The notes under the pieces are model-generated. The model did not search any database and was not told the origin of the DNA. It worked only from the letters and a program-made list of their open reading frames with translations. The position numbers and the translations under genes were made by a program. From Gammaproteobacteria bacterium (GTDB taxonomy: Bacteria > Pseudomonadota > Gammaproteobacteria > Pseudomonadales > Halieaceae): a stretch of DNA of 36,691 bases. The stretch lies in contig QNFR01000015.1 of the NCBI GenBank assembly GCA_003646405.1, positions 1 through 36,691 on the forward strand, in the 5' to 3' direction. Below, one piece after another: positions 20,933 through 23,996 of the stretch (the stretch's first letter is position 1; the number at the start of each line of letters is the position of its first letter).

Positions 20933-21388
20933 CTAAAAAATCCCCATCGCCAGTCCAGCGGCGAATGCCTGTCCCAATTCTTCACTGGACTGCAGGTGGG
21001 CGGTGGTCACTTCCCCGCGCAGTATCAACGGCTCTGCCGCTGCAGGAAAAGGGTAGCCCGAAAGAATCCGTTGGGCCTGGCGCACCGCACCGCGTCCGTC
21101 ATTGCCGGCACTGACCAATAGAGCATAAGGCAATATCAGGTCCCTATCGATACACGGATAAAAAGTACGATCCAGGAAATCTTTCATGGCGCCACTCAAG
21201 GCACCGGAGTTCTCCGCCGCCACCAGTAACAGGCCATCAGCCTGCAACAAGTCCGCCATGCCTGCATCCCATACCCGCCGTATCGTCACCCCAACTTCGG
21301 GCTCTGCTTGAGCTCCGCGCCAGGCGGCACGCGCCAACTGCGCACTGGCACCGCTCTGACTGTGATAGGTGATCAACAATGATTTCAT
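20933..21388 (-). CDS. Flavodoxin-like / NADPH-dependent FMN reductase-like protein
   Basis: This is a small (151-residue) flavodoxin-fold protein. The N-terminal strand and phosphate loop read MKSLLITYHSQSGAS, as in FMN-binding proteins. The middle stretch LLVAAENSGALSGAMKDFLD resembles the flavin-contacting loop of WrbA/NAD(P)H-dependent FMN reductases. It probably carries electrons or reduces quinones or flavins, but the partner is unknown. An upstream in-frame start at 21430 would add 14 residues of no family likeness, so the ATG at 21388 is preferred. It converges on the LysR gene, 38 bases away. Upstream lies a long gene-free interval. Confidence 0.82.
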   Translation of the reverse strand: MKSLLITYHSQSGASAQLARAAWRGAQAEPEVGVTIRRVWDAGMADLLQADGLLLVAAENSGALSGAMKDFLDRTFYPCIDRDLILPYALLVSAGNDGRGAVRQAQRILSGYPFPAAAEPLILRGEVTTAHLQSSEELGQAFAAGLAMGIF

Positions 21389-21490: not shown

Positions 21491-21524
21491 ATACTTATCC
21501 ACAGGCTGGCCTGTGGATAAGTAT
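21491..21524. repeat. Perfect palindrome of two consensus DnaA boxes
   Basis: The arms at 21491-21506 and 21509-21524 are exact 16-bp inverted copies around a TG centre. Each contains the 9-mer consensus DnaA box: TTATCCACA at 21495-21503 and its complement TGTGGATAA at 21512-21520, eight bases apart. No T-run follows on either strand, so it is a poor intrinsic terminator. There is no dnaA, dnaN or gidA nearby, so it is unlikely to be the chromosomal origin. A DnaA-titrating or DnaA-reactivating site, or a DnaA-controlled promoter, are possible roles. Confidence 0.6.
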
Positions 21525-21666
21525 GGGGACAGACGCCCCACCCGGGCCCGGGGATCTGTGCCTACGCCTGATGTTCAACTCTGTCGGTGAAACCGCAGCC
21601 ACAGTATTTATATTCTTAAATCAATGACTTACAGATTTTTTATAGGCTTTAAGGAATGCCCCTGAC

Positions 21667-21688
21667 AAAAAGCCCTATATAAATAGGG
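21667..21688 (-). terminator. Likely intrinsic terminator of rlmKL
   Basis: On the minus strand the sequence reads CCCTAT-TTAT-ATAGGG, then C and five T. It lies about 120 bases after the rlmKL stop and is oriented correctly for that gene. The six-pair stem is short, so efficiency is uncertain. Confidence 0.5.
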
Positions 21689-21809
21689 TTAAACTGCCTT
21701 TTGTGGATATCCTTTCGACGACGGGGTTGGCGGGCACTAACGGCGAAAGCCACTAATCACCACTAGTTTCATATTTGAACCAGGCCAAAAGCGATGCCAA
21801 CCACCCTAC

Positions 21810-23996
21810 TCAAGCACCAGCACGGTGCGTGATTAACCAGCAGCGGTGGATTTTGCGATTGCGCTGAAAGTCGGGACCCAGGGTTTGTGCGCTGATGTCC
21901 TCACAACAGAACTCATCCTGCAGGGCCGCGTCCAGATGGAAGCCGCGGCGGTTATTGGAAAAGTATAGCCGCCCGCTTTCGTGCAATACAGCCATGGTGG
22001 CGCGCACCAGATCCGGGTGATCGCGCTGCACATCGAAGCTATCATCCATGCCTTTGGAGTTCGAGAAAGAAGGCGGGTCCAGCAGGATCAGGTCGTAGCG
22101 GTGCTGCGCCTGCTCCAGCCAACGCAGGCAGTCGGCCTTGACCAGGGTATTGCGAGTTTCATCCAATCCGTTGTGAGCAAGATTTTTGCGCAGCCAGTTG
22201 ATATAGGTATTGGACATATCCACACTCGTCGTCGAGCGAGCGCCACCCAGGGCGGCATGCACGCTGGCACTGCCGGTGTAACAAAAGAGGTTCAGAAAAT
22301 CCCTGCCGTCAGCCTCCCTGCCGATGCGCAGTCGCAGCGACCGGTGATCCAGAAAAAGCCCGGTATCGAGGTAATCATGCAGGTTTACCAGCAGCTTCGC
22401 CCGCCCCTCGCTGACACTCAACAACTCTCCGCGAGCCGCCTGTTTTTCGTATTGCTCAATACCGCGTTGCCGGCGGCGCTGCTTGTAAACAATCGATTCA
22501 GGGGATACACCGAGCACCACCGGCAACGCCACGCGCACCTCGTCCATCCTGCGCGTTGCCGCATCCGGGTCCACCCCACGGGGAGCCTTGTATTCCGCCA
22601 CATGCACCTGCCCGCCATATAAATCCACTGCCACCGCATACTCGGGCATGTCCGCATCGTACAGACGATAGCATTCCACTTGCTCGCGCTTTACCCACTT
22701 AGCCAGGCGCTTACGATTTTTGCCCACGCGGTTGGCGAACATTTGTGCACCTTCAGACAGGGAGTCCGGGGCGAGTTGGACCGCGGTCGTAGCCGCTACC
22801 GACCCACGCAGTTCATTATCACTCAGGTCAAACAACAACAGACTGGCGGCAATAGCGCCGTTGTACATGGCATAGCGCTTGTAGCTGCGCAGGCCGGTGG
22901 CCCTGCCCAGGTCCAGGTCGGAGGTAAATATAGCCGCCTGCCAACCCGTGAATTCCACCAGCATTTTCTCACCGAGCTGTCTGTACAGATAGACAAGGCT
23001 CTCTTTCTCCCCGAGACGTTCCCCGTAGGGTGGATTGCAAACCACCAGCCCCAGGGGCATGGGTTGGTGTGTAGGCTTACTCAATTCAGCCACTGGCCTG
23101 CAACTCACCCGCACAACTTTTTCCAGCCCAATGCGCGCGATATTTTCCTGGGCACGACGAATGACTTTCGGGTCTGCATCGTATCCACGGATCTGTGGGA
23201 GTTGCGCCGCCCTGCCCCGTTCCGCGCGACCCCGGGCATCGCTGAGTATCGCCTGCCACTGTTGTTCGTTGTGGGAGTGCAAATGTTCGAAGCCGAAGCG
23301 CTTTCTGCCCAGCCCGGGGGCTATATCGGCCACCATCATGGCCGCCTCCAGCAACAGGGTGGCGGAACCGCACATGGGATCGACCAGCGCGCCGCCGCGA
23401 GCGGCGATATTCGGCCAGTCCGCACGCAGCAGAATGGCCGCGGCCAGGTTTTCCTTCAGTGGAGCGACTCCCGCCCGCAGGCGATAGCCACGCTGGTGCA
23501 AACTACCGCCAGAGAAATCGATAGACAGCTGCGCCCGGTCCCTGACCAGACGGATGTTAAGCCTGATATCCGGATTGTGCCGCTCTACTGAAGGTCGCTG
23601 GCCAACTTTAGCCACAAACCAGTCAACAATGGCGTCTTTGCTGCGCTGGGCGCCAAACTGGGTGTTACGAATCTCGTGGTTCTGGCCGGAAAAATCGATC
23701 GCTATACTCTGCTGTGGCCCAAACATGTCGGCCCAGTCAATACCGCTCAATTCACGGTAAAGGGTGTCCCCATCACCAGCCTCAAGGCTGGCGATGGGCG
23801 CCAGAATACGATTGGCCAGGCGTGACCAGAGGCAGGCTCGATAAGCCAGCGCCTGTGGGCCATCGAAATACACACCGGCCACAGTTTCACGGGTGGCACT
23901 GGCCCCCATAGCCGACAATTCCGCCGCCAGCAGGGCTTCCAGCCCTTTGGGGCAGGCCGCAAACCATGGCTCTTTTGCTGTTTTACTCACAGGCAC
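21810..23996 (-). CDS. rlmKL: Bifunctional 23S rRNA m2G2445 / m7G2069 methyltransferase
   Basis: This 728-residue fusion enzyme modifies two guanines of 23S rRNA, as in E. coli RlmKL. The N-terminal half has a THUMP RNA-binding domain (about 45-155) and the RlmL methyltransferase with catalytic motif NPPYGER (Asn321). The C-terminal half is RlmK, with FLNLFCYTGSASVHAALGGA for SAM binding and DPPSFSNSKGM at about 640-650. The start is GTG at 23996, with GAGGA upstream; a second GTG two codons later is an alternative. The length is as expected for the fusion. A 104-base AT-rich gap separates it from the upstream HTH gene and probably holds its own promoter. Confidence 0.95.
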   Translation of the reverse strand: MPVSKTAKEPWFAACPKGLEALLAAELSAMGASATRETVAGVYFDGPQALAYRACLWSRLANRILAPIASLEAGDGDTLYRELSGIDWADMFGPQQSIAIDFSGQNHEIRNTQFGAQRSKDAIVDWFVAKVGQRPSVERHNPDIRLNIRLVRDRAQLSIDFSGGSLHQRGYRLRAGVAPLKENLAAAILLRADWPNIAARGGALVDPMCGSATLLLEAAMMVADIAPGLGRKRFGFEHLHSHNEQQWQAILSDARGRAERGRAAQLPQIRGYDADPKVIRRAQENIARIGLEKVVRVSCRPVAELSKPTHQPMPLGLVVCNPPYGERLGEKESLVYLYRQLGEKMLVEFTGWQAAIFTSDLDLGRATGLRSYKRYAMYNGAIAASLLLFDLSDNELRGSVAATTAVQLAPDSLSEGAQMFANRVGKNRKRLAKWVKREQVECYRLYDADMPEYAVAVDLYGGQVHVAEYKAPRGVDPDAATRRMDEVRVALPVVLGVSPESIVYKQRRRQRGIEQYEKQAARGELLSVSEGRAKLLVNLHDYLDTGLFLDHRSLRLRIGREADGRDFLNLFCYTGSASVHAALGGARSTTSVDMSNTYINWLRKNLAHNGLDETRNTLVKADCLRWLEQAQHRYDLILLDPPSFSNSKGMDDSFDVQRDHPDLVRATMAVLHESGRLYFSNNRRGFHLDAALQDEFCCEDISAQTLGPDFQRNRKIHRCWLITHRAGA

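Follow-up and report, generated by a model that had tools for sequence, protein, structure and literature searches.

A predicted, constrained DnaA–IHF element downstream of rlmKL in Halieaceae, with a DARS2-like organization

The palindrome at positions 21491–21524 of the analyzed DNA (a stretch of 36,691 nucleotides, hereafter the window) was found to be the core of an element of approximately 216 bp (21495–21710). Judging from the predicted binding sites and their conservation, this locus next to rlmKL is almost certainly a constrained DnaA–IHF element. We also consider it somewhat probable from the sequence that the locus is a DARS2-like, DnaA-reactivating element, at which the nucleotide bound to DnaA would be exchanged, and that the copy in the window is most likely a Halieaceae variant, with an 8-nt gap between the opposed DnaA boxes and without a Fis-like site.

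Organization of the element

The palindrome sits between the 3′ end of rlmKL and a flavodoxin-like gene, and reads ATACTTATCCACAGGC-TG-GCCTGTGGATAAGTAT, a perfect inverted repeat of 16+2+16 bases. An earlier note on this DNA had described it as flawless, with two consensus DnaA boxes facing each other eight bases apart and a third, near-consensus box at some distance; reading of the window confirmed the repeat, the two facing boxes (21495–21503, + strand, and 21512–21520, − strand) and the distal box, ATATCCACA, which has one mismatch (21702–21710, − strand). The features are listed below, with element coordinates in the sense of rlmKL and the first base of box II as 0.

20933–21388, − strand: flavodoxin-like gene flanking box I, start codon ATG at 21388; weak NCBIfam matches only
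21491–21524, no strand: palindrome, i.e., boxes I and II with flanks (arms 21491–21506 and 21509–21524)
21495–21503, + strand: DnaA box I, TTATCCACA, facing boxes II and III; position +17
21512–21520, − strand: DnaA box II, TTATCCACA, exact; position 0
21524–21532, − strand: weak DnaA box III, CTGTCCCCA; position −12, separated from box II by 3 nt
21619–21631, − strand: IHF consensus (TAAnnnnTTGATW), TAAGTCATTGATT, read directly; position −111
21636–21645, − strand: conserved AT-rich sequence adjoining the IHF site, CTATAAAAAA
21702–21710, − strand: distal DnaA box, ATATCCACA, one mismatch; position −190
21810–23996, − strand: rlmKL (RlmK/RlmL methyltransferase; NF008748, 964.8 bits), the constant neighbor

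Box III has three mismatches to TTWTNCACA and constitutes a “double DnaA box” together with box II. The IHF consensus used here is the one printed in the accessible part of PMC8682772. The earlier note had overlooked the exact IHF consensus, the conserved weak box III and the conserved spacings, and its term “orphan” does not apply, because the palindrome is not isolated: it forms the core of a larger element, one of two such elements in most of the family genomes tested. The exact box TTATCCACA occurs three times in the window, a number reached in 0 of 100 dinucleotide shuffles, versus 0.21 expected. The third exact box (1903–1911) lies alone within the acnB reading frame and is probably a chance occurrence. 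The head-to-head box pair occurs once in the draft genome to which the window belongs (2.9 Mb, 279 contigs, 91% complete), the surrounding 360 bp are single-copy in the same genome when searched for as a repeat element, and no Rfam match was obtained in the window.

The closest named relatives of the window's rlmKL are those of Haliea, Halioglobus, Parahaliea and Pseudohalioglobus (67–73% identity), and identity reaches 86% in unclassified gammaproteobacterial drafts, which places the window within Halieaceae or near this family. The neighbor on the box I side varies. In the window it is the flavodoxin-like gene, whose ORF as listed begins at GTG 21430 and is read away from the palindrome; in 6 of 13 relatives it is a frame, which we take to be oxidoreductase-like, that is convergent with rlmKL and ends within tens of bases of the palindrome.

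Two further sequences were observed between the IHF site and rlmKL. A terminator-like stem with a T run (21673–21688, − strand) follows rlmKL closely and separates the distal box from the IHF site; such stems occur at the rate expected by chance, but a similar one is present in L028. Near the distal DnaA box, a 16-mer, GTTAGTGCCCGCCAAC (21726–21741, − strand), is kept in many family loci approximately as GTTAGTGYCTRCAAAC; it is partly dyad-symmetric and includes the rlmKL stop codon in L035, L036 and L039.

Conservation of the element in Halieaceae

The opposed pair was searched for with the pattern TTATCCACA-N(0–20)-TGTGGATAA, using the reversed pattern as the control. Matches were obtained in 25 of 58 genomes (own genome included), exactly once in each, and the control gave 0 of 58. 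In the family of the window (37 genomes; Halieaceae according to its named relatives), 20 genomes matched, and all 20 matches adjoin rlmKL; none of the five matches in other families is beside this gene. Among 80 rlmKL loci from named genomes, a set that overlaps with the family set (e.g., L028 and L016), nine carried an exact pair, always downstream of rlmKL; apart from two unclassified drafts close to the family, all belong to Halieaceae. More distant genera, Pseudomonas among them, had no head-to-head pair at rlmKL. Box I has been lost in some of these named relatives; one strong box is retained downstream of rlmKL in L032, L034, L035, L042 and L080, and L052 has two same-strand boxes 187 nt apart. 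The earlier note had suggested that relatives be searched for the palindrome between rlmKL and the flavodoxin gene; rlmKL is the constant neighbor (20/20), and the gene on the flavodoxin side changes.

The 20 family loci were selected by the palindrome alone, the IHF site and the distal box being absent from the search pattern. In these loci, many of which share descent and some of which are nearly identical (e.g., L197, L198, L202 and L203), so that the counts are not independent events, the IHF consensus was located at −110 to −112 in 14 and at −101 in one, and was not found in the other five, by a scan that allowed T or C as the first base or the reverse form WATCAANNNNTTR. A same-strand DnaA-like distal box was present at −191 to −187 in 16 loci and at −180/−179, one helical turn nearer, in four; two of the 20 distal boxes have two mismatches to TTWTNCACA. 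The gap between boxes I and II is 8 nt in 17 loci and 5 nt in three (L006, L012 and L013). When the 17 eight-nt loci were aligned, in which the search itself imposed identity on boxes I and II, mean pairwise identity was 0.87 for box III versus 0.29 for the spacer from −98 to −14. The value for the distal box at the single offset −190 was 0.39, which is as low as this because both its place and its letters vary. The inner six bases between the boxes had a value of 0.34; they are not kept in relatives, and the complete arms of 16 bp are therefore in part a peculiarity of the genome of the window.

A sister element at queD and related elements in other families

A second pattern consisting of box II and the IHF site, TGTGGATAA-N(88–106)-WATCAANNNNTTR, matched in 46 of 140 family genomes (reversed control, 0 of 140). 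Thirty pattern loci were fetched, of which 22 adjoin rlmKL and eight lie elsewhere; all eight are accompanied by queD, and seven also by an alpha/beta-hydrolase gene. The genome of the window itself carries such a sister element.

L131 1422–1633, contig C4: own-genome sister element, between queD (TIGR03367) and an alpha/beta-hydrolase gene

Along this element lie the distal box TTATACACA (−189), the IHF site TAACCTATTGATA (−110), box III, TTACCCACC (−12), box II (0) and box I, TTTTCCACA (+14). Its arrangement, I-5-II-3-III, is the exact order and spacing of the DARS core. The layout shared by L131 and the rlmKL element indicates that one genome has two elements built on one plan, with gaps of 5 and 8 nt, respectively. 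The possibility that the queD-side matches represent oriC was rejected, given their flanks (queD and the alpha/beta-hydrolase gene) and a distance of more than 2 Mb from dnaA in G036.

The pattern of box II and IHF also matched in 150 of 391 genomes of the order (reversed control, 2) and, with the gap set to 80–106, in 131 of 377 genomes of the class (reversed control, 3). In 30 order-wide loci, several of which are close relatives, box I, which like the distal box lies outside the pattern, fitted best at a gap of 5 nt with at most two mismatches in 26, a distal box was located at −193 to −187 in 21, and the IHF site fell at −108 to −112 in all 30, though −101 to −119 was allowed. Among the fetched class-wide matches, 21 of 29 were 117–121 nt long where 102–128 nt was permitted. 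A reverse test that started from exact head-to-head pairs yielded 58 pairs in 48 of 292 genomes of the order (reversed control, 1). The gap was 5 nt in 40 pairs, 8 nt in seven (all in the family of the window), 19–20 nt in eight (all in family f36), and 1, 3 and 14 nt in one pair each. Of 23 five-nt loci examined, 11 have an IHF site (at most one mismatch) at −109 to −111, in every case on the side of box III; some of the other 12 are cut by contig ends, and those of family f8 are without this site. The few reversed-control matches throughout (0/58, 0/140, 2/391, 3/377 and 1/292), counted by reading the result tables, led us to reject chance as the source of these patterns.

Two families differ in form. 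The eight exact pairs of family f36 (L277, L278 and others) are separated by 19–20 nt, and neither IHF nor box III was found in the usual place in the two f36 loci examined. Family f8 (L004 and L268–L274) has five-nt, DARS-like cores without IHF in the usual place, a simple DARS1-like form.

Fis and IHF

DARS2 needs both IHF and Fis, according to the available portion of PMC4245941. We scanned for the Fis consensus GnnYAnnnnnTRnnC. Between the IHF site and box III, this consensus was detected in 7 of 8 queD-type loci (0.4 expected), 13 of 30 order-wide loci (1.8 expected) and 9 of 22 class-wide loci (1.2 expected), mostly at −77/−78, as in the seven queD-type loci. The same interval gave 0 of 21 in rlmKL-type loci, and none was found from −215 to +30 in the window, although a consensus scan can miss weak sites. 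A Fis gene scored above the cut-off in all six genomes tested, including the own genome, and IhfA was detected in five of the six. The exception was the own draft, where the IhfB gene is present; IhfA and full-length DnaA were not found in this genome, which is itself incomplete.

Comparison with the E. coli DARS sites

The places of DARS and datA in E. coli were checked against gene tables, a published deletion primer and a ChIP table; datA lies between yjeV and queG. The DARS1 core is TTATCCACT-5-TGTGGATAA-3-TGTGTATTA (L108 1608–1642, bioD–uvrB), and the DARS2 core is TTATTCACC-5-TGTGGATAG-3-TGTGAAGAA (L109 2636–2670, rppH–mutH region). On the coordinate scale used for the window, the IHF-like sites of DARS2 fall at −99 and −83, and an exact DnaA box occurs at approximately −197, on the other strand. 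A second core-like sequence, TTATCCCAG-5-TGTGGATAA-3-GGTGTAAGA (21.0 bits with the model R1 described below), was observed in the DARS2 region of E. coli at L109 2952–2986.

The box order that defines DARS, with box I opposed to boxes II and III (PMC5742627 and PMC8682772, in the parts available), is present in the window, as is the 3-nt spacing between boxes II and III, and both are shared with DARS1 and DARS2. Like DARS2, the window has IHF on the box III side and a further DnaA box beyond it. It differs from DARS2 in the gap between boxes I and II (8 nt versus 5 nt), in having one IHF site, which at −111 lies 12 bp beyond the nearer-matching site of E. coli, in its distal box at −190, which is on the strand opposite to that of the DARS2 box, in its lack of a Fis-like site and in its location beside rlmKL rather than mutH. 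DARS1 likewise has a 5-nt gap; no IHF site was seen in DARS1, and none is given for it in the literature consulted. Both the queD-type sister and 3 of the 20 rlmKL-type loci have the 5-nt gap. Since the spacing of boxes I and II in the window departs from that of DARS, we call the element DARS-like and do not assign it to DARS as a member.

Copy number and chromosomal position

Of 81 elements found with a match length of 117–121 nt, 74 were non-redundant, and 48 of these were used to build a sequence-only model, R1; neither E. coli nor the window was included. The window scored 45.5 bits, a value that is not fully independent because R1 includes a same-genus rlmKL copy (L132). In E. coli, where only stretches chosen to hold DARS and datA were scored, R1 gave 33.0 bits for DARS1, 24.1 bits for DARS2 and at most 16.7 bits, in pieces, for datA; the core boxes carry much of the score.

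R1 was run on 18 genomes, 15 of them from the family of the window. Both the rlmKL and the queD kinds, each confirmed by a neighboring gene, were present in 12 of these 15 (G000, G007, G008, G012, G016, G019, G022, G031, G034, G036, G072 and G142). The rlmKL copy of G036 was detected with the pattern alone; the second R1 match in that genome (24.2 bits) is located immediately upstream of dnaA. Two queD-type copies and one further R1 match are present in G026, G013 has only the queD type, and G127 has only a weak rlmKL-type match (26.4 bits). The three genomes outside the family gave 7, 7 and 4 R1 matches, the weakest of which were near the threshold. G377 and G706 have seven R1 matches each, and two or more elements occur in one order away from E. 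coli-like genomes.

Two relatives are available as single contigs. In G034, dnaA is at 0 Mb and the elements lie at 2.49 Mb (rlmKL) and 2.76 Mb; the corresponding positions in G036 are 0.21 Mb for dnaA and 2.33 and 2.48 Mb for the elements. The sign of the GC skew changes between 2.04 and 2.24 Mb in both genomes. These positions place the rlmKL element approximately 80–96% of the way from the origin to the terminus. The available part of PMC5010248 states that E. coli DARS2 works less well when moved near terC.

Discussion

DARS-like action of the rlmKL element is favored because of its I-II-III core, the side on which IHF is located and the presence of a sister element. DnaA would occupy boxes III and II (the double box) together with box I, which opposes them, whereby two DnaA AAA+ domains would meet head to head. 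IHF would bend the DNA at −111, which could loop DnaA on the distal box (−190) back to the core. The complex would then change the nucleotide state of DnaA, most likely through release of ADP, after which DnaA could rebind ATP and start replication. The 8-nt gap and the missing Fis-like site argue for a changed output, and the element may run differently from its canonical 5-nt sisters; the simplest history of the gap would be a 3-nt change at a fixed locus. Several observations count against a DARS2-like element, namely the 8-nt gap, the missing Fis consensus, the offset of IHF, the strand of the distal box, the IHF consensus not found in 5 of 20 loci and located at −101 in another, the loss of box I in some relatives, the terminus-proximal place in two relatives and the failure to find IhfA and full-length DnaA in the own draft. 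The earlier note had suggested a DARS-like or datA-like role. This suggestion of a DnaA-control element is well supported by comparison, through the conserved place, the phased IHF and DnaA sites and a sister with the DARS core spacing; sequence alone cannot tell reactivation from inactivation or titration.

A datA-like element, which together with IHF would hold an ATP-DnaA oligomer so that ATP is hydrolyzed and DnaA switched off after initiation, appears unlikely. In datA, box 2, a single IHF site and box 3 share one strand and precede an opposed box; the window repeats this order and strand arrangement with its distal box, IHF site, box II and opposed box I. Moreover, the IHF 13-mer of datA, TAACCTATTGATA, recurs unchanged in the sister element. 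However, the datA double box (7+2) lies across IHF from that of the window and points towards IHF, whereas that of the window points away; the spacings differ (97 bp between IHF and box 3 versus 111 bp here, and 65 bp between box 2 and IHF versus 79 bp here); and datA is recognized by R1 only in fragments. The sisters show the DARS core spacing. Still less probable is a plain high-affinity sink that titrates DnaA and leaves its nucleotide unchanged, for which two perfect boxes plus a double box and the single copy at the rlmKL locus would be suitable. DnaA prefers a double box, and this arrangement predicts in vivo DnaA binding in E. coli, according to the portion of PMC11317965 available; as there, CTGTCCCCA-tac-TTATCCACA in the window has a weak upstream and a perfect downstream box 3 nt apart, but here these are joined by a third box in opposite orientation and by an IHF site at a fixed distance. 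Titration requires neither a phased IHF site nor a fixed distal box, yet both are kept, and a terminus-proximal site would be replicated late and at low dosage, which is poor for titration.

The remaining readings are less probable still. The flavodoxin gene starts approximately 107 bp beyond box I and reads away from it, which would fit a DnaA-controlled promoter, the alternative offered in the earlier note; such a promoter is improbable in view of the changing neighbor on that side, with the convergent frame in 6 of 13 relatives, and of promoter-like sites at the level of shuffled sequence (2 found, 2.2 expected). The transcript of the palindrome folds well (−30.5 kcal/mol, z −5.1), as expected for an RNA hairpin or transcription terminator, but between 0 and 4 of the 4 inner pairs are kept among relatives, no T run follows the palindrome, so that the stem with T run and conserved pairing of an intrinsic terminator was not found, and a separate terminator-like site is located nearer rlmKL (21673–21688). 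A hairpin would also leave the phased IHF site and distal boxes unexplained, and we regard it as very improbable. Least credible is a second or relocated replication origin: DnaA boxes, an IHF site and an AT-rich stretch do occur together, but in the two single-contig relatives the locus is terminus-proximal, on one arm, far from dnaA and away from the skew change that would mark an origin.

A bolder extension of the DARS2-like interpretation, which we regard as doubtful, is that gammaproteobacteria carry a dispersed DARS2-type DnaA–IHF family in which the Halieaceae rlmKL copy is a distinct machine with another output. The gap longer by 3 nt and the loss of the Fis-like site would then alter the meeting of the AAA+ domains, and the output could be, e.g., Fis-independent, or inactivating rather than reactivating. 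If so, the two elements would be paired DnaA switches working in opposition, both in the terminus-proximal region.

DARS sites were described from E. coli, and the conservation statements in the accessible parts of PMC8682772 and PMC4245941 cover relatives of E. coli, the later one naming Enterobacterales species, one Vibrio and one Shewanella. A literature search by title and abstract, with few subscription journals covered, returned no description of an rlmKL element or of a DARS in Pseudomonadales, which is weak evidence of absence. If the DARS2-like reading is true, reactivation of DnaA by phased DNA elements would be a general gammaproteobacterial system with a recognizable anatomy, often with several elements per genome (up to seven R1 matches). 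The Halieaceae pair would offer a natural experiment in which the spacing of the opposed boxes and the presence of Fis sites can be set against output, and the anatomy supplies a search pattern for such elements in unannotated intergenic DNA.

In G333 (contig C33:42650–44049), three matches to the pattern of box II and IHF lie within approximately 1.4 kb, as if duplicated.
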